64,000 bases of DNA, taken from assembly GCA_963931865.1 (NCBI GenBank), contig OZ007507.1, positions 8,739,847-8,803,846 of the forward strand, read 5' to 3'. Position 1 is the first letter of the stretch. Each line of letters begins with the position of its first letter. This DNA comes from Axinella damicornis. Its lineage: Eukaryota > Porifera > Demospongiae > Axinellida > Axinellidae. The position numbers were made by a program, and so were the translations under genes. A model generated the notes under the pieces. The model worked only from the letters and a program-made list of their open reading frames with translations, had not been told where the DNA came from and did not search any database. Shown here piece by piece: positions 10,209 to 50,900 of the stretch.

Positions 10209-10610
10209 GCTAAATCAAGGTCAAGTGCGAACGCAAACGTTCGGTCTGCGAACGCGAACGTTAACTTGTTCGCGAAACGTTCGGCCTACGAACGCAGCGA
10301 TAACGGTCTGCGAATGCAGCGTTCGCACATTATGTCTGCGAACGCAAACGTTCGGCCTGCGAACGCAGCCTTCGCAAACGTTCGGTCTTCGAACGCAGCG
10401 TTCACAAACGTTCGGTCTGCGAATGCAGCGTTCGCGAAAGTTAACTTGTTCGCGAACGTTCGGTCTGCGTTCGCGAAACGTTCGGTCTGCGAACGCAGCG
10501 TTAACAAACGTTCGGTTTGCGAATGCAGCGTTCGCGAACGCTACATTCTGTCTGCGTTCGCAAACGTTCGGTCTGCGTTGCAAACGTTCGCGGTCTGCGT
10601 TCGCAAAGGA
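10209..10610. repeat. Left CpG-dense tandem array (terminal arm)
   Basis: About 400 bp of degenerate units made of gttcgcgaacgttcggtctgcgaacgcag words, with several CpG per unit and occasional ttaacttgttcgcg inserts. The density of CG and the alternating inverted words (gaacg/cgttc) set it apart from the surrounding AT-rich sequence. Confidence 0.85.
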
Positions 10611-10730
10611 TCCCGTAAAGTACAGTGTAAACTCCGCATTGAACGTATAAATAGAACAATCATTATTCATGTTAATAGTGACATTCTACTCGTACTGTAC
10701 TAGCGTACTACTACTACACATAAACAATGA

Positions 10731-13700
10731 CTAAAGAATGACTTCGAAGTACTCAGTAGCCCCGTCAAGTTCAGGGAGGGACTTTGGTGTCCGAAGCGTG
10801 GCGGCATCCAGGATGACGTCGAAGTGAACTGATCCTGGGTGAGCAAGTTCAATGTGAGGCAATTTGTCTGTAGCCACAGAACTCTTCCTTGGTGTGTATC
10901 GGTGCCAATGATACCTCTCTTGCTGCTCTCTCTTGGTGAGGAGATAAATACACATGTCATAGTAGTCTGCAGCAGCCTGCAGTTCTACTTGGGTTCCCCA
11001 CACAAACGGTTTCTTCATACTCTCCAGGTGTTCACTAAGTGTACGTCCCAAGAGTAAAGGCTTGTAGCGATCAGAATGAGCTCGGATGAATTCCACCAGA
11101 ATTTTCCTTATCTCTAGATGCCTGTCTTGAGAACGATACAAGCAAAATGACAGACTTCTGAACAGACAGTTTCCGTCTGGTAGCATTTTCTTCACTTCCC
11201 TACCAGTACAGCTCAAAATGTGTGCCATGTCTTCTGATTTTGGTTTCTTGGAGGGGTTCAATGCTTCGGGTGGGATCGGCTCATCGGGAAAGTCTCCAAT
11301 TTTCATGTATCCTGAGCTAGTTAATAATTCCTGTAGTGGTGCAATACATGAATTATGATGTATATGGAAATGCTGTAGTAAATGCAATTATACATCTGTG
11401 CATATCTTACTTTCAGCACTTCTTCATTGGATCTTCCAAGCATTTGGTATCTTGGTAGTGCCACGTTGTGCTCTAATGGAGGTAAGCTTGCATTGAATGC
11501 TTGCATGTGAAAATGTAGTCATTTATAAACAAACATACTGTGGAAGGGGGCTGCTAATTCATTGAGGGTGTTGATTGTTTCTTGAACTTCTGAATGGGTG
11601 GGTGGAGGTTGTTTGTCTACGCTGGAAGAAGTATTGTAGCCTTTACACCGTCTATGGACACAGCTCTGTTTTAGTCGGTTGTGTCCACCAAACTTCTTCT
11701 TGTCCAAACAATATCGGCACTGACCACAGTCTGCACTCTTGCATGCCATGCAGTGACCACATCTTCTTTTTTTGGTCCCTGAGTAGCATGGTAAATTGAA
11801 GTACAAGTCGTGTTAGTAGATTTGGTACAGGGATAGCTGTGTATACATGTATAATGTACCTGGTTTGAGTTGACCTTGTGTCAGTGTGGTGGTGCTGCTG
11901 TGGTGGAGATCAGTGATATCCTGTGCAAAAAGGAACACTGGTCTGTAAACTAAGTTTCTACCTACAATACTAGTTGGCAAAGAAGGGTACCTTGGTGCTT
12001 TCACGTTTGGTGGTCCCTTGCTGGTGCTCAGGTATAGGAACAGTGTTTCCTGTAGGAGGATTGAGTGCCAAATGCATGAGAAGGGAGTAAGGGGAAGGCT
12101 GGGGGGCTATAAATGGGGTGATTCAATACCTGTGCCTCTGTTTGTGGTAGTTTTTTTGCCTTTAGGCCGACCCACACTAGGTCTTGTTGCTGCATTGAGG
12201 GGATCATCCTTTAGCCTTTGTCGTTTGGGTGGTATTGGGCATTCTTTGTTGCTCTTCCGCTTCAGCTTCTTGTATCGGTGTGTTAGCTGGTTTGCACGTA
12301 CCATCATCTTAGCTTTCCTCCGATATTCTGCCACCTCCTCCTTCATTAAGTTCTTGAGAATAGGAAGCTCGCGATCGTCTGCATGCTTGGTTGAAGATGT
12401 TAGAAGTTCTGAATGTATACTGTGTACTTTGCTCTGCACATTTTCCAAGGCGGTGATGTCATCAACCATGAAGACAGCTGCACTGCACTTGGCAAGTTCA
12501 TCCCTCAATTGCTTTTGTAGGCGTAGTAGTCGGGATCCAGGTGTCTGATGGAGTGGTATTGGAATTGAAGTACATGTATATGGAACTGAGTTGTCCTCTT
12601 CTGTAAGAGGTAAATCTGAATGCTCATCCTGCAGTATGTCACTGTCAAGTGTCATGAATGGGCCTTCCGTGAGGGAGTGAGGCAGGTCTTCCCATCTCCA
12701 CCTGAAGTTCTGGAATATACTGAACATGTGCTTGCAGGGGATTCTGCTCTGTGTAAAGTAAGGGCATGAGCAGTTTCCCTCCTGGATTTGTACTTTGTAC
12801 GTTCCTCTCTTCGACTTCACACTATACACCCCATTCGCAGCATCCTCTTCTGTGATGGAAGGGAGCTCGATTGCCCTACCTTTCTCAATGTTGAGTAAGC
12901 AAGCACTTATGACTGAACTTGGTCGGTTTATCAGGAATTGAGGCAAGACATTTCTTGGCTGTCGGTAAGCTGATGTCTGTCTGGCTGTTAGAACAGTGTA
13001 TTCTCTGTCTTGATCCGGAAAGACACACTGGAGGAGAATCTTTGTAAGAGAAAACACTGACTTGTCATGACGAAGGGTGAGATAATGATTTTTGAAAACA
13101 TTGTTGAAAGATTCGGTGAAATTGTTGGTGTCAACACTGTTGTGGAAATGTTGTCGATGTAAGTGAGACCATAGCTGTGGTAAAGAAAGAGTATACTATT
13201 ATTGCTGATATATTTATTACTTTATGAGATGTGATACGCTTACTGGTTTGCAACTGAGCCATTCATTCTGTAGATAGGCCTGCAGCAGAGCGTTGTCTGT
13301 GTACCAGTGGGCGCCTGTGATCTTAGACAGTGCTTGATCATATTCACCCTCTGCAGATGGAGAAGATGTGATTGTAAGTGAATGATTGAAATGCTGTCTC
13401 CACCTACTAACTAACCACTCTTGGCGTAAACAAGCTCCTTGATTGCTGCTTTCACTATACTTCTCACTTCAGGTGGAACACTGTGCTGCGAGCAATTAAC
13501 CCAACGCTCAACAGCTTGGAAAGTGTGGAAGTCACAGATCAGCCTGATGCAGTCTGGATGTACCTCACCAACAGCCCCTGGGGGGTAGGAAAAGAAGCAG
13601 TCATTGCTTATCCTGTAAAGTATGCATTCACATAAAGGTTTGTACCTAGCTCTTGGGCACTTTTGTCAGTCATGAAAAACCGAGGAGACCATCCTGGATT

Positions 13701-15762
13701 CCATTCTTTTAGCTTCTGTAAGCCCTCCTGTATTAATTCTTCGGTCTCATATTGAGGAATAATAGTCCCAACCACTCTGCCAATTCCAAGTGCAGTTTTC
13801 ACAACCAGGAAAAAGCAAGGGAATCCATACCGTAGTGTTTTGTATGTTGCATCCATGCATGTGATGGTGTTCCCATATTGCTGCAACCAGTTGCTTTGCT
13901 GCTTCGTTTGAAGGACTAAGAGAAACGATTGGTCTGCATCTGGAATGATAAGCCCCTCAGACTCAGCTTCATGCAGATTTTTTACTGCCTGGTGTATCTG
14001 CTTCAGAATGTCTGGATTTCTAAAGTGAATTGCATGCAAGAATACTCAATTAAGTGACAAAATCTCCAGGAAATTCCACAAAACTTGCCTGTCAGTTTGT
14101 GCTTGGCCGTGAGGTTGTGTTCCACTCCTTTAGTAATGAAGCACAAGGCATTGTTTTAGAGAGCAAGTTCGCCTCCTTCAACCCTCATGTATCCCTAATT
14201 AATACCTACATGTACCTACTTGAATAGAGATCATTTCCTGTGTCCCAGAAAATTCCCCCCATCACCTACTTAAAAAGTACCCACTTCAATTACCTCCATC
14301 AACTACTTCAAAGAGCACCCACTCACCATAAATAGTTGTCACAACTGAGGTTTTTAGGTTATGTGATTATGTACCACATATTAAGTGCTACATAAACAGA
14401 GGCAGGGTTAGTGGCTGGGTACAGTACATGAGTGCCAATTTACAATATCTGTAATACCCATACAGACTGATCCTGGATTTTAGCTTTACCTTTTGTTGCA
14501 TTTGTCATACTGACGAAAGAAATATTTCAAGCCATTCTTGGCCTGTTCATCCTGTAGAAGCTGAAGTACAGCCTCCTGGTCAAAAAGGGAATTACGCTCT
14601 CGTGTGATTGCTTTCTTGACCATCACCCTGACATCCTCAGCTGTTGGGTAGTATGCCCGATTGTACTCAGACGGCTTGCTGGTTATGACACCTGTGTTCA
14701 GGTGTTTGGTTACCAACTCTTTTTCTACCCAGGTTTTGAGCGACAGCCTAAGTGCCCTTTGATTGAGAAAGGACTCTTGAACAAACTCGGCAACTTTCTC
14801 CTCTATCTCTGGAAGAGGCTTCATAGTAAGCTGGTCCGTGACCGAAGATGGATTGTGAGCTGGTAGGTGAGCACTCATCATTGGAACCTGAATTTCCAAA
14901 ACTTGCATTCCATTGCTCACATTCAAGAGTCGAACCTGCACACTTGCTTTACATCCAAATCGCCTAGTTCCAAGTGATGAGCGGTTTTTCTTCCCGAGAC
15001 AAAGCGACTTGAAGCGACCCGTACCACCACGCAGGCAGCTGTAAGCGTGTGACCATGCAGAAGTGAATGTGAAGAGCTTTCCTTCCATCTGTATCACTCC
15101 TGTCTCCCTTGACTGAGTGTTGCTTTGTTTTCCAGAGCGTATCGTGTATTCACACCCTGTCTGGAGAGTGAATCGTTTGAACCAATCTGCCCAGTTGTGG
15201 TCAGTGTAAGGGACCATGTACCCTGTTACATATGGCTCGTTGAATTCTGCAGGTCTTGAGGAGTAACACTGCGTGTGGAGACCTTGCAGTTCCTGGCAGC
15301 AGTGTGGGAGTTCTGACCATGGTATGGTGACTTTGTCTATGTGGAATGCATTTTCACCTTCATGATGCATTTCCTGTCGACACTTTGTAACGCTGTTCCC
15401 GTTTTGTTCACATTCACAGCAAGAAGTTGCTCTAACTGCCTTATGATGTTGTATAAGCCGACAGTACTCTGCCCCTCTCTTGCTCTTGTAGCAGGAGATG
15501 CAGCGACCCAGTACATGTGTATCTGTTGCAAAGTGTGGAGGATCATTGCATTATTGAACTGCAAAAGCCACCGTCCACACACGTAGCTAATCATGGAACC
15601 ATTATGTATACCATGCCAGGTTGTCTATCGTGTGTACCCACCTTTTCCTGATTTCTGCTTGATGTGTGGTTTTCCAAAGTGACTCTCTCCTGGCAGATCA
15701 TCAGACCCTTGTTTTGTAGACTCATTCTCTGGATGGTTCTCCTTGTTCGCCAGCGCTGCCAT
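10731..15762 (-). CDS. Mutator-like transposase with SWIM, CXXC zinc finger and OTU protease domains
   Basis: Exons supported by splice sites and motifs, 5' to 3': 15642-15762 (starts MAALANKEN), about 15545-14490, 14019-13646, 13577-13416, 13350-13244, 13174-12130, probably 11920-11860, then 11778-11539, 11499-11411 and 11330-10731 (stop). Order of domains: a Cys-rich N-terminal segment (CISCYKS..CCEC) and a GCM/FAR1-like region (TDHNWADWFKRF, GCKASVQV); MULE DDE core with Asp in CMDATYKT, Asp in FMTDKSAQE, the CDFHTFQAVERW motif and Glu in TNNFTESFNN; SWIM finger (CSCPYFTQSRIPCKH); CXXC finger with KFGG (RRCGHCMACKSADCGQC, then KFGGHNRLKQSC); OTU protease with DGNCLFRSL (Cys codon 11166-11168) and HFDVI (His codon 10824-10826). 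Phase around 12130-11920 and the 5' acceptor near 15550 are unresolved. Probably intact or nearly so. Confidence 0.8.
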
Positions 15763-15836
15763 GGTCATGTACCCGCGATGTACGCGCGAATAATTTGGAC
15801 ATACGCATGCGTATTTTACTGTACCGTAAGTTGTAT

Positions 15837-16030
15837 TTATGCGTTCAATGCGGAGTTTACACTGTACTTTACGGGATCCGTTCGCAAACGTTCGGTCTGC
15901 GAACGCAGCGTTCGCGAACGTTCGGTCTGCGAACGCAGCGTTCGCGAACGTTAACTTGTTCGCGAACGTTCGGTCTGCAAACGTGAACGTTCGGTCTGTG
16001 AACGCCAAACGTTCGGTCTGCGAATGCAGC
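15837..16030. repeat. Right CpG-dense arm, inner part
   Basis: Begins with the inverse of the inner left arm (gttcaatgcggagtttacac) and continues into gaacgcagcgttcgcgaacg units. It stops at gaatgcagcg directly before a T-rich run that marks the LINE 3' tail. Confidence 0.8.
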
Positions 16031-18687
16031 GTTTTTTTGTTTTTTTTCTTCTATGAAACTTGTTGGATAATACAACAAGGATACACAAATAGCTGCGCTA
16101 ATAAGTAGTGTACCCTACTACAAGGTAAACAATGAAAGATTATATTTAAAGGAGGTAAATGAAGGGGAGGAAATAACAATAATCTGGTAACGTATTCCAA
16201 TTTGAAATAGAGTTAGGTATAAAGGAATGCAAATATGAATTAGTATGTGCAAATGGTTAATATAATAAATGTGAACGAGGATTGTGGGATAAAGCGCTGC
16301 TAGGTACAAAACACCAGGGGGAAAGTACAACAGCCCGTGGACTATCTTACACACATAGCACAGCCTTGTGTGCAGTCTACGCTGTGCAAGCGAAGGTAGA
16401 TCATTGCATGTCCAAAAGCTCATGGTAGCCAGCATCCCAGTTTTTAGTGCAAATTCTACTCGCAAATTGCTGGGTTTTCTCAAGCATGGCTGGCTATGTC
16501 TTTCTGCAAGTAAGGAGACCACACTGGAGCAGCATATTAGATATGGCTGTACCATCTAGCGGCAGGGATACATATAACTGATGTAAAGTTGCCACATCTG
16601 AGTGCCCGTAAAAATGCCTATACACAAGACCCAGAATACGTCTCGCCTTGTATATTGTCAATGTGAGTTGTCCAGGAGAGATCAGATGTTATTAGCAAAC
16701 CAAGATATTTAAAAGTGGGTGTTACTTCCAGTGGGGATCCATATAGAGAAATGGAGGGGTTCGGGTTTATATGTCACTTTTTCCTCAAGACTAACATAAA
16801 TTTACTTTGGCGACGTTAAACGTCAAGTAGTTAGCTGAGGCATAAGTTTCTAGAGCGTCGACATCAGGTATAGTGAGATGGGGCGGTATAGAAGAATGTC
16901 GTCTGCATAGAGAACAATCTTTGAACCATCAGATAGGCTGACATAATGCTATATCATCAATATATATGAGGAACAACAAGGGACCAAGGATGGAACCTTG
17001 GGGTACACCTGACACAACACTCATGGGCAGGGAGGATGCACCGTTCACCACTACACACTGCTTGCGGTCCGCCAGGTAATTATGTATCCACTGGACAATG
17101 TGAGGGTTAATTCCACGTTGACAAAGCTTAGTACGTAAGTAATGACTGATGAGGGACAGAGTCAAAGGCTTTGCAAAAGTCAAAAAAATACTGCTCCTAT
17201 TTCCTTTCCATCCTCGATCTGCTGGAACCAATCGTGTGTGGTGGACAACAATCCAGAGACCGAGGATTTGGCAGCTTGGAATCCCCATTGGCAGTTAGTC
17301 AGTGGACAGTGCTCTCTAAGATGGTCCGAGATTAAACAATGGAAATGCTTTTCAAGGATCCTACTGAGGATTGGATATTGGCCTGAAGTCATTTGGGCCT
17401 TTAGCACCCTGTTTCTTCGGGATGGGTACGACATTAGCGCATTTCCACGCAGTAGGTGGCTGACCCAGTTGAATAGAGAGATTGAAAAGCTTGGTGATGG
17501 AGGGAGCTATCGCATAGCAGTATATTTCAACATGTGAGCAGAGATACCATCTTTGCCACTGGCCTTGGCAGTCTTGAGAGACTGCAACATATCCATTTGT
17601 TTCTAGCCTGGCGAAATCTGGCATAGTCCTGATGTGTCCCACTTCTTTTTGCTCTTTTGAACAAGGTATTTCTTCAACGCATTGATCGGGTAATGCCTTT
17701 ACTCAGCCATGGGAGATTTCGGCGTCTTGGCGGAAGAACTCTTCTTGGCCTCCATTATCTCAAGGAACTTTCCCTGCCAGTTCAGCCACGAAGAATTGCA
17801 TGATGTCATCACTGAAGAGTTCATCCCAATTTGTATCTCTTATCCGCTGTTGAGCTAGAGTAAAGTTGGCACGCGAGTAGTGCCAGACAGTCCTGGTACG
17901 TGGTTGAGATCTCCCAGACCTGACCGTAGGTTTCAGGTCCAGTGTAATATGAATCCCAGAGTGGTCAGAGTTTGCAAGAGGAGGGATAACTGTACAATCC
18001 TGGACATTTTGAGGAGATGACACAAGTGCGAGATCAATCAAGGAGGTATGACCAGAGGGGGAAATGTGTTACAACCTGGGATAAACCAAATAACTACAAA
18101 GTTTTGGGTACAAATGATGAGAAGGAATAGCAAAATCTACATTAAAATCACCTACACACACAAAGTTACAAAACTGAGAAATGTTTAAAGCACCCAGTGA
18201 CTGAAAAAAGTATCAAAAATAGATGAGGCTGAACTGGGTGGGCGATAAAAAGTACATATACAAACTTTACAATTGGATAGCCTAATGGATACAGGAAGAA
18301 ATTCTAAATCGGGTGACAAGTCAGGAATAACATTTGCCACAAAGTTTTCACTTGTATACATGACAATCCCACCTCCATGGCGATTCAGTCTGTCAAGGCG
18401 ATGCACATTCATAGCCCGGAATGGCAATCTCATTGTCCTCGATGACATCACATAGCTATGTTTCGACGATGCAAACAATGTCAGGATTATATTACTGGAT
18501 ACTACAAACACACAGAGCTCATCCAATTTAGGCATGAGACTACGGGCATTGAAATACATAATAGACATAGTCCTCTTGGCACCGGCCTTGGACTGCACAC
18601 AAAAGCCTGTGCTCAGGTGCACAGAGGTTTCCACGGGTGGACAGGTACGATTACAGTTTATGGGGCTATTTACAGCAATGAACTTAG
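16031..18687 (-). mobile_element. Non-LTR retrotransposon (APE-type LINE), frameshifted
   Basis: On the minus strand the segments appear in normal LINE order. Endonuclease motifs come first: NARSLMPKLDEL, GGGIVMYTS and FYRPPSS at 18634-18185, then SDHSGIHITLDL near 17990-17940. The reverse transcriptase follows: VVPIPKK..NDFRPIS near 17430-17370, FLTFAKPL, then SGVPQGSILGPLLFLIYIDD near 17020-16940. A C-terminal region (LPSLAQRRLHTRLCYV) lies near 16400. Several frameshifts break the frame, so it is inactive. A poly-T run at 16031-16047 is the poly(A) tail seen from the plus strand. The 5' edge near 18680 abuts the rest of the CpG array; a short agcg word occurs at both junctions. The subfamily (CR1/L2/jockey-like) is not resolved. 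Confidence 0.85.
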
Positions 18688-18955
18688 CGTTCGCGAACGC
18701 TACATTCTGTCTGCGAACGCAGCGTTCGCGAACGTTAACTTGTTCGCGAACGCAGCGTTAACAAGCGTTCGGTCTGCTACATTCTGTCTGCGAACGCTGC
18801 GTTCACGAAAGCTCGGTTTACGAACGCAGCGCTCCCAAACGTTCGGTCTTCGTTCGGTCTTCAAACGCTGCGTTCGCGAACGTTCGGTCTGCGAATGCAG
18901 CGTTCGCGAACGTTAACTTCTGTCTGCGAACGCTGCGTTTGCGGTATGCGGCTGC
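18688..18955. repeat. Right CpG-dense arm, outer part (separated by the LINE)
   Basis: Continues the array exactly where 16030 stops: gaatgcagcg joined to ttcgcgaacgctacattctg reproduces the uninterrupted word in the left arm at 10523-10550. Degenerates after about 18940. Confidence 0.8.
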
Positions 18956-39251: not shown

Positions 39252-39580
39252 GATAGATCGTGATCATCCGAGCTTAACCTCGTTCCCAGGCCCCTTTTCG
39301 ATTTTTCGAATGTATGGGGCCTGGGAACGAGGCTATAGATTAGAGCTCGGAGGGGAATTCCCTTGTGGGCGTGGCTTGCACATGCACACGTGGTTCTCTG
39401 ACATCGTTGAAGCTGGTCGGGTCCTAGCCTTACTACCTTAGCTAGCAAAGTAGATGGGAAAGGGGGTCAAGACGAAGTCTGGAGAGGTGGTTACACTGAA
39501 GGCCAGGTGAGAGATTTGTAACAGAGAGAGAGAAATACCATTCTTGGCAGAAGAGGGTCAATTATGGCCAGGGCTAGGGC

Positions 39581-40163
39581 TAGTCTCGTTCCCAGACCCC
39601 CCTCGGAAAAATCGAGAAAGGGTCTGGTAACACGTATGGCAATGCCGCGTCCAAGAGGAATTCAATCAGTTACACAATCACGTGTGAATGTTTACACTCG
39701 AGGTGATAATTGGAGTTGTGCGCCAGTAAATAGCTGTATGTACAGTACTAAGTCTGGCTTGAACATGTCAGACACTGTACCAAGCCGTTCTGCGCTACTA
39801 CCCCGAGAGCGGAGAGCTGCACAGTACAAAAGTCGAATTACGACGGGAAGCTAACGGTATTAACGAAAGCTTTTCCCGTAGCCGACTGGTAGGCACACAA
39901 ATACAGCTTCTATTGCCCCTCAATGCTTCGGTATCAATGTTCCATACCTTATTCTCCCTCGGGAAACTTCGACGGCCTTGTCAACTGAACGCCATGATGG
40001 TCGCTGTATACCGATGAGTTTGCACATCCGCGATTGAACGTGACGTACATAATTTCTGCAATCTGATTGGCGCGAGTATATAGCCCGCGCGGACATGACG
40101 ATGTATACACGTGTTGCCAGACCCTTTCTCGATTTTTCCGAGGGGGGTCTGGGAACGAGACTA
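39581..40163. mobile_element. Non-autonomous element with ~50-bp inverted termini
   Basis: The left end is tagtctcgttcccagaccc, then a ctcggaaaaatcgag hairpin, then gggtctggtaacacgta. The right end is the inverse, tacacgtgttgccagaccc through gggtctgggaacgagacta. The unique interior is about 480 bp with no recognised gene. Confidence 0.75.
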
Positions 40164-40343
40164 GGCTAGGGCAGGTAGTCCGTATAAGTCAGTTGATCCC
40201 CTGTCTAGTCAATACAGCCTAGGTGATGAGACATATGAGGTGATTGAATGTCCATAGCGTATAGGATATCCACTATAAATTATGTAATGTGAACATTACA
40301 TAATTTATGTAATGTGAACATTACATAATTTATGTAATGTGAA

Positions 40344-44900: not shown

Positions 44901-47900
44901 AAAGCAAGAGCTCCTACTACTTGTGAGGACACCGACTTCTGCTCTGTGATGGCAAATTGCATGCACTGCTGCTAAAAAAAACAAGTAATAAAAAACATTT
45001 GAAAATGTAACAGGATGTAGGGATACCAGAACGGCAAAAAGTAAGGAAACAAGGTAGGGATGATCGCACAAAACAGTGAAGTATACAATCCCCCTACATA
45101 TCGTTTTTCATTATACACGTATATGGAAAAAGATCTCTGTAGGGGGGTTGTATACTTCACTGTTTTGTGCGATCATCCCTACCTTGTTTCCTTACTTTTT
45201 GCCGTTCTGGTATCCCTACATCCTGTTACATTTTCAAATGTTTTTTATTACTTGTACCATGTAAGACAGATGGGACTGTGTGTGGGAACCCCATGTACAT
45301 CCCACCTGAGCCCATGCGTACCATTTCCCACCTGTCCGTCTGGATACTTGTAGGTGAGACTGTGCGGCGATCCCATATGCAGCACAGATCCCACCTGTCC
45401 ATTCTATCACACTGTGCTGTGTAGAACCTACATGTAAATTCCCATGTACCACCTGAGCCCACCATATCCTACCTGTCCATCTGTCCCACTGTACCGTGTA
45501 GGACAATTGGACCAACCTGTGCCCACTTACATGTACAAATGTACCATATATCCCACCTATCTGTCATCTCCTGCTGTACTAGGGCCTGAACAAATGGGGA
45601 ATCCCCCCATTCGAATGTTTGGTAACTAACATTCGAACAACATTCGGTAGAATCAAGATATTACATAACGAAGATCTTGCGCGACCATATCGGCAATTCG
45701 GTCGGTGATTAGCTTCGCACGACTGGTGGGGCACTTCGATCGGGCGATAAAAGCATTCAGAGTTGGATCGTGTTTCAATTTCTTCGTTGCTGTGTATGTG
45801 GTTCAGGTGGTCGTGCAAGTTGATCGTCCCTCCATGGTAAGTATAACTTTTGTTGCACAACTTGCACTTCACTGTCTTGTGTCCTGTTATCACACGAGCA
45901 GAGCTACCTGCATCGCTATCGAGAACGCCACCAACAGCACAGCCTCAGTCTCCGCCATCTTGCAGCTAGCTTAAGGTAGCATTATACCTTCAGACTAGCT
46001 TGTACTCCATATGAGATATTGAATTGAAGCTTTCAAGTAATTAAAGATACACCTTTGGAGTTACCAGAAATGGTGAAGTATGCAGCAGTTTCAATAGCGA
46101 TCACATTTATATATTCTTACTCAATTCAAATTATTACATACACAAGTGGGAATATGACACCTGAACCACTACATCATTGCACACCATTTTACATTTGCCT
46201 AATCAGTAATCCCATCCAATTGCTATAAACCTCAAATATGGTGAGAGACATCTTAATTACATTAATTACCATAGTTGAGGCACAACTATTAATATTTTGC
46301 TTGACATACACTTTCAACTGTGCCATGATGTTACAGTAGAAAAGATAAAATACATTCAATGACTGGTATGTTGCATATATCATATAAGTACTTGCACAAA
46401 CTTCTGAATTACTTGAAAGGAATATGGACAGTTGGCATTTCTAGAAGCACAGAAGAATAATGGTTTTGAGAAAGGTTCGGAAAAGTGTAAAACCTACCAG
46501 CAACATACATATCACCTTCTCTTGTTTTCAGGGTTTCATCTCTGCCTTTTTTTGCTCGTCTTTTACGTTTTCTTTCTTGTTTACGAAACTCAGTACCTTT
46601 ATAAGCAGCATGATAAAGGCGAAGTTTGTCCTTGCGAACCAAAGCCTGCAGGGTATGATCCCTCTCTCCAAGGCCCATTGACTGCAGTAGGGCACAAACA
46701 GACTTGGCTCCATCATTGAATGATGCAAAGGCAAGGGCAACAGCTGTCTCTACTGTGTGTCTTCCGGCAAATCTCTCCTTGGGGCAACGCTGCCAGATAA
46801 CATGGTGCAGTGACTCATTTGCATTTTGCGTTTGGCCCTTTACACATCTCTCAAGCAACTCGCGGTCTGACAATCTTGTGAAGATCGGTTTCAGTTCCTC
46901 AAAAATTGCTGGAGGAATGGTACCATGATGTGTGTATGATTTACGATCCCTCTGCCATCCGCACCAGCTGTCTGCACCTTTCGGACAGTATTTATGCATC
47001 GGCTTGCGGTCACTTGATCCCCTGTGGTAGAGAATAGCATAGACAGCTTTTTGCATCGCATCAACACTCCCACCATTTTCTCTGATTGATTTACCGTAAT
47101 AGCCTTGCAGTTTGTCAATGAATTTGTCTGTAAGACGGCCTCGACCACCAATTGTTTTCCCATCCTTCAACCTCCTTTTGCCCCAAGTCTTCTTTAGTTT
47201 CCTAAGTGCAGTACCTAAGCGTTTTTGTACATGACCAATGCAATCACTCTTCGTTATCGTAATATCACCATATGGTTTACTATCAACGACAGCCGAATAG
47301 GCTTTACTATCACCATCACCAATAAGAGTAGTATACTGTAAGTTGTATAGGGACATTGACCGACTCCAAAGTTCAACTGCACCAGCAGCTTCAATCGCAT
47401 TAGCAGATCCATCAAAATCAAACAAGCATTTGCCGTCAACTAGGTGACTCTGTTTCCACATTTGGTACTCCTCTGACTGAGGATCAAGACGAGCATGCCT
47501 CATGCAACTCACACAGAATCGACTCTTCACAGTATAATCAAGCACTTTGCCAGTTTCTGCAGATATTACGGCAACAAGACCATACAAGGATGAATGGCCG
47601 CGCCTGTGCCATGAGCCATCACAGGATACTTCTATATCTATTGCTGTCTGTACGTCTACACCATGCTCTCTGACTACTGACTTGAGCTCTTCTGCTGCCC
47701 GTTGCATACTCTGCTTTGCGATATCCACAGCTGCTACATGGAGAGCTTTTGCATGGTTGCTATAAGTATTTGAGGTCATTGGTTTTGGCATGTTCAAAAC
47801 AGCGCATAATGTCTCAAGATCTGTTAGACCACGCCCAATAAGATGCATACCTGTGACTATTCTTCGATTTATGTCATAAAATCGGACGATCTTCCGGGAT

Positions 47901-50900
47901 GTTTGCATGTTCGTGGAGTGGTTGCACTGCATGCACTGAAACACCATGATGGATGCAAGGCCATATTTGCAAGAGGCCTCACACAAGATAAGATTTTGCG
48001 TATGACATCCGGGGCATTCAAGACATGATACTGCAGTGCCAAGGTGAGACACATCAATTAGCCGGTAACCTATAGGAACTTCAAGTCCATCTTCAAAGTC
48101 GATCGTCTCTAAACTATCGTCACAAACACCATGTCCATCAACTGACCCCGAACTCTCATTTGATCTTTCACTACTCCCATTCGAGCTCTCAAGCTCATCT
48201 GTGGGGTGTGCGTTGATTAGAAATAGGTTCAAAATAATTTTGCCGCTTCGAACATTCGGGATTCGAACGAACGTTTGAATGTTGGTACATTCGTTCAGGC
48301 CCTATGCTGTACCATGTTGGACGTACAAGTGGGCCCCGGACGGTTCATGGAAATCCCATGTCCATGTGTTACACTGTATCTGCTCGATTTGATGAGTCCG
48401 TTCAGTAGGTAGGATTTACAAATTCCAATGGGCCAACTATCATTGCAGCAAAGATTTGTTGGTCATTTTAGACACCGACTCAAAAGCCCTACGCTGGGAG
48501 TCTGTGAAAGACTGGACGTACTCAATGGAAAATGCTGTTTGGAACTAGGGTGCCTAGGTCTGAGTCTGGGTCATTGAAGAGATGATCTGTGATTTTGCCC
48601 TGAGGCTCATCATCTCACTCTCCCATGACGGGTATCTCAGGGAGGAAAATATCTGCCTCGTCCTCCGTGATGATGAATGTAGAGCTGAGCTAGGGCCTGC
48701 GAAAGCCCGCCACCACTGATAACACTCTTGATAGGCCTCAAAGTAGTAGGCCTCGAAGCGGATAGCAGTGTATACGTCCTCTGCAGGTGCTGTAGATCCC
48801 TACTGAGCTTGAGCATACGCTGACTATAAGAGCTAGCTCGGTGTGCAGGAAAATAGTGATCTGGCTCTGATGGAAGATGCAAAGACCCTCCACGGCCTCA
48901 ATTGCACCTACATTGTACCACGTGTGTGCATATACCATTCCGGAAGGGAGGCATTCTCAGGTAGTTTAATTATGCAGCTGGGCTCAGCCTTGCTGATGTA
49001 TTTTGCAAGGTATACGTACTGCTCAAACCCATGCTTGCTCACACGCTGCGTATATCATTGCATTCTCTACACACGTACACAAAACGCACTCAGTCCTCAT
49101 CCAGTTCCTCGGTGAGCTGTGGAATCTTGAAAGGAAATCCATACTTGCAGTACAGCAAGTCTTCCCATGAAACATTGTCTGCCCATATCGCATCTGCATC
49201 TTGAGTACAATCTTGTGCAGGTACATCCCCACCCTGCACAGGTCCTCATTGTCACTTGTCAGTACGGGGAGGAAGGGGCACCTCAGAATTGTGCTCATAG
49301 TAATGGTGTTCTTCAGCTCATGTACCCGTACAATCTCTTATACCATGTTGAATATAACGTTGGTGAGTAATTTCGATCATTATATGGACTCCATTAGTGG
49401 GATCCCAAGTATGATACAGTAGGATTTGGTGGGATGAAGTGGGACGGTGGATCCCCATGGACAGTCCCAACTGTCCTACACGGTACAGTGGGATAGGATG
49501 GACCGGTGGGATATGTTGGGCACAAGTGGGATTCCCATGGACAGTCCCACTGTCTACATAATATGGTAAAGCGACAGTGGTATATGGTAGGCTCAGGTGG
49601 GGCAGTGGATTCCCATAGCCGTCCCACCTGTCCCATGGGGTACAGTGGGATTCCCACCTGTGTACAACGGATTATGATGATGACATCATGCACTCACAGA
49701 TGGGACAGATGGATGGTTAAATATACCCCATATCACTTGTGTATGACTGTCGTAGTTGGTACTCCCCCTCACCTCCTTCCTCTTACCTCCACCCCCCCCC
49801 CCCTCTACACACACATGTACATACATACGTTAGTGGTGGCCGTGACAATGTGGTGCATGTGTGGGACCTGGCTAGTGGTTCTCTGAGGAAGACACTTCCA
49901 GTCTTTGAGGCAAGTGTGCGGACCACCAGAGACTCTACCGCTGGTAAAACACATGGTTGTATATTATTATGCTCTGTGTGTGTGCGCAGGCGGTTGAGGG
50001 TCTGGTGGTTGTACCAAAGGATGATCTGAGGAAAGGGAAGGGACCGTGTTTTGTAACGGCTGGAGACAAAGGTAAAGATGGTGTTGTGTAGACTAGCAGT
50101 GACTGAATCAGATACGTGTTCTAGAGTGGCGTGACATATTAGTTATGACTGCTTGGCACTTACTCTCCAGGTATCATTCGGTTCTGGGATGCCACCACTG
50201 GTCAGACAGTGGCGGAGTGTTCTTCTACTGGTGTGAGTCCACCTGCGTACACTGGACTGCAGTACTGCAAGCAGCTGGGAGCTGTGGTGGCGGTGACGTA
50301 CGACCATAATATTATCCTCTACGACGTCAAGGAACAGAAGAGGTTGAAGCAGGTGCGGTGAGACATGGTTCATATAGGCATGGCATCCCCTGTAGTGCAG
50401 TAACTGATATGTGCTGTTCCCTTGCAGTTTGTCGGCCACATGGATGAGGTACTGGACCTGCAGTTAATGGGAGAGGGGGAGAGCCTTTTGGCGGTAGCTA
50501 CTAACAGTGAGCAGCTCAAGGTGTTCAACAGGGGGAGTCAGGACTGCCAGGTAATGAGGGGGTGTTCTCAGTGACCACCGTCTCTAACTCGGTCTTTTAG
50601 TATACAGCGATAGTGACATGCATACTGTGCTGAGTTGTACGTGGAGACATATAATACTGTACTCACTCTTTATTAAGCGTATGCACCTATACAGTGTACG
50701 TATCTCCACAGGAATGAACATCAAATCAAAAACGAGGAGCGTTTCATTTCGAACTAGACCCTTTTCCACTCTGTAGGATCGAAAATGGCAGGGTTTCTTG
50801 TTTTTCCAGATTAGGAAATAGTACGTTTCAGAAAATTGCAATATGTAATCATGACGCATAATAATATTATTAGAAAAATTGGAATAGCACATGTGTGAGC

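Follow-up and report, generated by a model that had tools for sequence, protein, structure and literature searches.

Why should the gene of a Mutator-like element (MULE) transposase run on into exons for a CXXC zinc finger and an ovarian-tumour (OTU) protease, and do these exons belong to the transposon at all? The question is raised by a minus-strand gene in a 64,000-nucleotide stretch of the sponge Axinella damicornis (assembly GCA_963931865.1, contig OZ007507.1, positions 8,739,847 to 8,803,846 of the forward strand; the whole stretch is called the window, and coordinates without a contig label count from its first letter). An earlier note, made from the letters alone, had proposed that one gene links all these domains. 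At the level of the DNA, we established a unit bounded by terminal inverted repeats (TIRs) and a target-site duplication (TSD), with a gene predicted in frame, several copies in the genome and a domain order that recurs in divergent families. Taken as a whole, the explanation that we favour, and hold to be on balance probable, is that of a MULE whose transposase would be tethered to CpG by its CXXC finger and would be assisted by ubiquitin removal through its OTU domain.

The gene, its product and the enclosing element

Spliced by hand, the gene runs from 15768 to 10731 in 11 exons; all ten introns have GT-AG borders and compatible phases, and one reading frame is kept throughout, the RNase H and OTU exons included, to give a product of 1,289 amino acids (aa) with no internal stop. 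The end at 10731 and the exons agree with those of the earlier note, but the start had to be moved from 15762, which is the second in-frame ATG, to 15768. The domains that the note had named were recovered in this one gene by Pfam, each above its curated cut-off: the RNase H core, best matched by ZSWIM1-3_RNaseH-like (PF21056, residues 418-520, 6.6e-16) and also by MULE (PF10551, residues 440-532, 2e-8), SWIM (PF04434, residues 727-751, 1.3e-6), zf-CXXC (residues 990-1034, 2.8e-12) and OTU (residues 1141-1231, 1.8e-12). The ZSWIM1-3_helical model (2.1e-4) stayed under its cut-off.

All exons lie on the minus strand. Exon 1 (15642-15768) begins with the start codon, and exon 2 (14490-15522) encodes the N-terminal part of the transposase, a putative DNA-binding region whose counterpart is retained in the deletion derivatives of family f2 (see below). 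The RNase H core, with CMDATYKT and FMTDKSAQE, falls in exon 3 (13646-14019), which is followed by exons 4 (13416-13577) and 5 (13244-13350) and by exon 6 (12130-13174), where TNNFTESFNN, the SWIM finger (about 12725-12799) and a basic linker are found. Exons 7 (11991-12049, 59 nt) and 8 (11860-11920, 61 nt) add up to 120 nt, so that the frame from exon 6 into the CXXC exon is the same whether they are included or skipped. The zf-CXXC match (about 11645-11778), with KFGG and then LKQ, occupies part of exon 9 (11539-11778); exon 10 spans 11411-11472, and exon 11 (10731-11330) carries the OTU protease (Pfam match about 10908-11180), with DGNC and HFDV, and the stop. The motifs listed in the note (CMDATYKT, FMTDKSAQE, TNNFTESFNN, KFGG, DGNCLF and HFDV) were all present in the spliced translation. 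The predicted domain architecture is certain at the DNA level, and a single mRNA spanning the whole gene is very likely.

Among PDB sequences, the nearest relatives of the CXXC finger were DNMT1 (3.4e-10) and KDM2A (9.3e-10), and those of the OTU domain were OTUD1 (2.3e-9) and OTUD5 (1.7e-7); a search of the same sequences with residues 1-990 gave no match. The window copy combines the zf-CXXC profile with KFGG and then KQ, and its OTU domain has both predicted catalytic motifs, i.e. Asp-Cys (DGNC) and His (HFDV). KFGG and KQ are important for CpG contact. Host CXXC proteins bind unmethylated CpG (PMC4509998; this and the other papers are cited from excerpts).

The complete element spans 10608-15879 (minus strand; 5,272 bp from TIR to TIR). 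Its TIR arms, of 53 nt each, lie at 10605-10657 (plus; gene 3' side) and 15830-15882 (minus; gene 5' side) and are 94% complementary; the 9-bp TSD, GTTCGCAAA, stands on the plus strand at 10599-10607 and, as an exact match, at 15880-15888. The locus therefore combines what defines a MULE, i.e. an RNase H transposase domain, a SWIM finger, TIRs and a TSD of 8-11 bp. Since the TIRs and TSD, which the earlier note did not mention, enclose all the exons, the CXXC and OTU exons are part of the transposon, and their assignment to a separate host transcript is very unlikely. Scanning the window with ARAGORN, and with Rfam at gathering scores, returned no match.

The genome was searched as 226 Mb in 120 contigs (labelled C1, C2, etc.; the window family is f1). 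It holds four pairs of the window TIR, two of which, besides that of the window, bound full-length copies on C1 and C5 with the same end bases. Gaps aside, these copies match the window copy at 99.5% and 99.6% identity, and they retain all splice dinucleotides. The C1 copy has one stop and a one-codon gap, and no TSD was seen around it; the C5 copy has a 326-column deletion in exon 2, an intron insertion and a 9-bp TSD that lies one base from one TIR. The gene of the window copy contains neither stop nor frameshift, so this copy can be used as the starting point for an assay. Substitutions relative to C1 (10 synonymous, 9 non-synonymous including the stop) and to C5 (5 and 8, respectively) are not numerous enough to test firmly for selection. 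The near identity of the copies suggests recent movement of the element. Degraded relatives of the family were found at C3:15400761-15404481 and C9:7097574-7098674.

The fourth TIR pair (locus L011, C2:20938700-20948690), in reversed orientation, belongs to an inverted duplication that is related to the window element and forms a palindrome of over 8 kb. Elsewhere in the window, a 630-aa open frame (46409-48301, minus) matches a Mutator-like transposase of a different Mutator lineage (PF20700, 8.3e-79), with no CXXC match; inverted repeats near 45253-45510 and 49449-49650 lie around it.

Related families in the genome and in protein collections

The fusion of a MULE transposase to CXXC and OTU, as claimed earlier, is borne out by the Pfam domains, by the TIRs and TSD around all exons and by the near-identical copies; it is also supported by divergent families in which OTU likewise follows CXXC. 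Genome-wide profile searches, whose counts are lower bounds for repeats, gave at least 68 CXXC, 46 OTU, 27 ZSWIM-RNase H and 51 MULE matches. An OTU match follows on the same strand within 2 kb for 18 of the 68 CXXC matches found, against about 0.014 expected, and the pairing is therefore above chance; among the same 68 matches, no pair within 2 kb occurred in the other order or strand arrangement. CXXC follows RNase H on the same strand within 5 kb for 13 of the 27 RNase H matches. By Pfam, RNase H, CXXC and OTU stand together only in the three window-family copies.

Family f2 retains the order MULE-SWIM-CXXC-OTU at a C9 locus, as found by tblastn, with identities to the window copy of 27-28% in the transposase, 31-33% in SWIM and 32% in CXXC-OTU (gaps and intervening stops counted); the stretch holding the first catalytic Asp is missing there. 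The family also comprises ten short TIR-bounded derivatives of 2.2-2.6 kb and one more at C13. All 11 retain the N-terminal stretch, the CXXC and OTU sequence (with an internal OTU gap in C7b), whereas the whole SWIM block and the greater part of the DDE block are gone; the C2 derivative was covered over 2,202 of its 2,481 bases. Ten short OTU exons were read: eight of them, that of C13 included, share one frameshift that removes the OTU histidine, C8b has a different break, and C8a keeps its frame open to the histidine motif. The idea that short derivatives in general encode an active OTU was rejected on account of these frameshifts. Derivatives such as C7:4193842-4196299 are possible sources of repressor or decoy proteins. 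The splice phases just 5' of the CXXC exon gave no workable solution in the one f2 copy read. Nearly all f2 copies, like f1, retain KFGG and the Lys-Gln that comes next.

MULE, SWIM and CXXC are present in family f3 (TIR of about 70 bp, element of 5.4 kb), in which no OTU was recognised; a possible phase-0 to phase-1 exon lies at the position matching window exons 7 and 8. Identity in family f4 is 65-74% over the RNase H core and 44-47% over the long exons that hold the N-terminal part and SWIM. The Pfam matches had given the impression that f4 and f5 are devoid of OTU, which tblastn corrected by placing a broken OTU remnant after CXXC in three of four loci (L041, L042 and L038, not L036); this check covered f4 outside C10, C7 and C8, where the OTU profile had no match. 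The CXXC exon starts in phase 1 at the same residue in f1, f2 and f3 and one residue off in f4, in one of whose two copies the AG is lost. This common start argues that CXXC was probably gained a single time in these families.

In protein collections, searches of 5.8 billion proteins with the full-length protein and with the CXXC-OTU region gave no match. The OTU exon gave 36 matches among the same proteins, including the window's own; several others are 57-84% identical, and some of the 36 may stem from other assemblies of the same species. An alignment of 24 OTU sequences was made from 23 of these proteins and the window copy (the other 13, mostly fragments, being excluded by eye). DGNC is present in 22 of the 24, down to about 30-40% identity, and HFD or HYD in 12, many others being truncated or out of frame there. 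Protein P0020 runs in one open frame from the MULE linker (aa 805-932, 72%) into OTU (aa 1104-1203, 61%), with no CXXC. Searches of viral contig and genome contig collections found no relative.

Two further observations concern these domains elsewhere in the genome. At C7:9809704-10226536, 20 of the 68 CXXC matches, all partial and 17 with a stop inside, are clustered in 0.4 Mb as a local array of CXXC fragments. OTU matches at L062-L064, L067, L069 and L071 lie in open frames of about 1,400-2,300 aa, possibly Helitron or other large transposon proteins, and several kinds of transposon in the genome may make use of OTU.

CpG at the insertion sites and the weighing of explanations

For 13 elements with both flanks, duplications of 9-10 bp are identical in six (in five the repeat abuts the TIR, and in C5 an additional base separates it from one TIR) and show one or two mismatches in four; one case, in an AT repeat, is not callable, and f1_C1 and f2_C12 have none. 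The window copy is inserted in a CpG-dense minisatellite, with a CpG observed/expected ratio (o/e) of 2.29 to the left (10230-10607) and 2.34 to the right (15880-16040); the o/e of the whole window is 0.60. A third block of this minisatellite lies at 18686-18914, and between two of the blocks a minus-strand piece of a LINE-like reverse transcriptase and endonuclease (about 16929-18068) matches under the Pfam cut-offs.

In this exploratory analysis, 18 insertion sites of CXXC-bearing MULEs were considered, 3 from f1, 11 from f2 and 4 from f3; for six of them a single flank was covered. CpG density within 100 bp was 7.8 per 100 bp, with an o/e of 1.26, versus 2.9 and 0.58 at 201-1500 bp, as far as the sequence reached (paired Wilcoxon test, n = 18: p = 5e-5 for density, 3e-5 for o/e). 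The near zone exceeded the far zone at 15/18 sites in density and 17/18 in o/e, and excluding the window copy left p = 1e-4 and 5e-5, respectively. Compared with the window background, p was about 1e-6 (287 windows of 200 bp) and 4e-4 (95 windows of 600 bp). Five TIR elements that contain no CXXC match and are flanked by duplications of 9-10 bp served as controls; they had 2.8 CpG per 100 bp, and the CXXC-MULE sites differed from them in density (p = 0.011) and o/e (p = 0.047).

The controls were picked from a TIR/TSD scan of 279 kb, leaving out the CXXC-MULEs themselves, the many rows within the palindrome on C2, rows that gave other boundaries for one and the same element, and a C12 row that lies in the CpG-rich satellite and encloses a CXXC match (12.7 and 6.4 CpG per 100 bp beside it). 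One control was excluded to give a set of four, as its palindromic duplication lies in a 37-bp tandem repeat and is perhaps no true insertion. Short TIR elements starting with TAGTCTCG (window 39572-40172, C13:4857535-4858277 and C14:2821446-2822114), with exact 9-bp duplications, form a family of miniature inverted-repeat transposable elements that served as a control.

Two DNMT1-like loci, where a CXXC match lies beside a DNA methylase match (C4:20479785 with C4:20483627; C9:5115584 with C9:5118776, with two stops), make CpG methylation in the host likely; together with the window o/e of 0.60, they are compatible with a methylated genome. Two adjoining single-frame DNA methylase matches, at C14:9304815 and C14:9312301 (frames of 494 and 486 aa), are separate from these loci.

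The mechanism that we propose starts from an autonomous-looking MULE with one predicted transposase protein bearing CXXC and OTU as two C-terminal accessory domains. The N-terminal region and SWIM finger would recognise the element ends, and the RNase H (DDE) core would cut and join. The CXXC finger, by binding unmethylated CpG, would hold the complex at target DNA that is dense in CpG and unmethylated. The OTU domain may strip ubiquitin from the transposase itself, or from proteins of chromatin or repair at the landing site, which would let the complex survive or favour a good outcome of repair. A transposon needs to land where expression is possible and harm is small, and in chromoviruses a retroelement integrase carries a chromatin reader. 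That the element and its relatives often lie at CpG-rich spots suggests that such a transposon may read the epigenome when it selects a target. Integration guided by CpG is a good hypothesis; the support from the 18 sites is correlative, and they fit it without proving it. The role given to OTU is a guess by analogy, backed only by the conservation of its catalytic motifs in sequence. An action of OTU at silencing complexes, as the earlier note proposed, is likewise inferred. The wider proposition, of a transposon class with its own epigenome reader, in which CXXC would steer to unmethylated CpG-dense DNA and OTU would defend the complex or remodel ubiquitin marks across at least four to five families of this genome, is possible but falls short of probable. 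If it were true, a cut-and-paste transposase with a methylation-sensitive CpG reader would tie the targeting of transposons to DNA methylation in a direct and testable way.

Several observations weigh against CpG guidance and a necessary OTU. Compared with ten random 300-bp windows, the sites differed in density (p = 0.0025) and reached only p = 0.07 in o/e; with the four safer controls, the values were 0.016 and 0.053. The controls are few and short, and so probably non-autonomous; two of them stand close to a CXXC-MULE, at distances of about 0.3 and 1 kb. C1 (o/e 0.49), C5 (0.60) and f2_C8a (0.50) sit in ordinary DNA, which leaves two of the three window-family copies without CpG enrichment. 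MULEs at large show a tendency to insert within or close to genes (PMC6446971), for which no CXXC is needed. To judge from f3, OTU is not indispensable, and most short f2 derivatives carry the frameshift that removes its histidine.

In a rather unlikely alternative, CXXC serves self-recognition or licensing by binding CpGs of the element's own ends when these are unmethylated, so that unsilenced copies alone would transpose, the CpG-rich landing sites being simply the open chromatin that MULEs favour anyway. It would agree with the CpG in the TIR ends of f1, f2 and f3, with the joint retention of N-terminal region and CXXC in all 11 f2 derivatives checked, and with the fact that enrichment at insertion sites need not stem from CXXC. 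However, CXXC reads CpG with little flanking specificity, which makes it a poor device for finding the element's own ends, and the five TIR elements lacking CXXC, a small number, showed no local CpG peak. We consider it improbable that CXXC and OTU form a second product, through an alternative start or splicing, acting as a regulator or repressor apart from the transposase. Maize MuDR, which encodes the accessory MURB, is the model for such a product, and the short f2 elements and C13, having lost the catalytic core and SWIM, yet keep the N-terminal region, CXXC and OTU, as would suit a regulator that acts in trans. On the other hand, the exons of the window copy share one frame all the way from RNase H to OTU, P0020 is a single open frame from the MULE linker into OTU, though lacking CXXC, and one frameshift is shared by 8 of 10 short f2 OTU exons.

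More improbable still is that the exons are functionless passengers, i.e. host CXXC and OTU fragments captured as in Pack-MULEs. MULEs do acquire host gene fragments (PMC6446971), and f3 has no OTU; but f2 has the same domain order at 27-33% identity, the CXXC exon start is common to f1, f2 and f3, DGNC persists in nearly all aligned OTU sequences, and both exons are in frame with the transposase. An assembly chimera, or an adjacent host gene misread as part of one gene, is untenable in view of three nearly identical copies with the same ends on different contigs, the exact 9-bp TSD of the window copy and that of C5, offset by one base; a host-gene fusion was likewise rejected on the TIRs, TSDs and copies. 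Among these explanations, we retain the CpG-tethered, OTU-assisted MULE.

Comparison with known systems

The architecture is real and was previously published only in part. The earlier note was aware of no CXXC plus OTU combination in one transposase: CXXC and the combination do appear new, but an OTU in a MULE was already listed. The OTU gene is tabulated for Hydra MuDR-6_HM, a group 14 MULE (PMC6446971). Like the window element, MuDR-6_HM is a MULE with OTU in an animal host; unlike it, it has no zinc finger in the table, the comparison being one of descriptions only. In the main text of that MULE survey, CXXC, OTU and Ulp1 each have no occurrence. No FLYWCH was matched by Pfam in the window protein, and the Phantom clade is still possible, since only some Phantoms bear FLYWCH (PMC6446971). 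The open-access literature searched, by titles and passages, names no CXXC-bearing transposase; the excerpts of PMC12460157 and PMC4509998 describe the CXXC of host DNMT1 and TET and host CXXC proteins, and no such transposase.

ZSWIM1 and ZSWIM3 share the RNase H core match (PF21056) and the SWIM finger with the window protein; they are host genes not known to have TIRs, CXXC or OTU. The note had also pointed to the Ulp1-type proteases of plant Kaonashi elements. Kaonashi and other Ulp1-MULEs likewise join a MULE transposase to a ubiquitin-like-modifier protease, but that protease is Ulp1, not OTU; an Ulp1 reading of the window protein was rejected, Pfam matching no Ulp1 (C48) family at E up to 1. 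We know of no CXXC in Ulp1-bearing MULEs.

Ginger1 elements carry OTU or Ulp1 as a C-terminal transposase domain, one with a PHD finger in addition, and differ from the window element in having a DDE of the Gypsy-integrase type rather than of the MULE type (PMC2836005); CXXC has no occurrence in the text of that paper. In the window protein, the core models matched by Pfam at E up to 1 were those of MULE and ZSWIM RNase H, and no integrase was among the matches. The Ginger1 paper also reports that Mutator elements of hydra, lancelet and plants carry Ulp1 and that Helitrons carry OTU (PMC2836005). Helitrons, with OTU and/or VTD deubiquitinase-like domains, resemble the window element in that a transposon encodes such a domain, and differ from it by their rolling-circle RepHel protein; CXXC is unmentioned in the excerpts of PMC9741609, whose authors describe transposon OTU activity as untested and suggest that VTD shields from proteasomal degradation. 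The fused deubiquitinase-like domain of the window element extends a pattern in which unrelated transposons, i.e. Ginger1, MULEs and Helitrons, gain proteases of the ubiquitin pathway (PMC2836005, PMC9741609).

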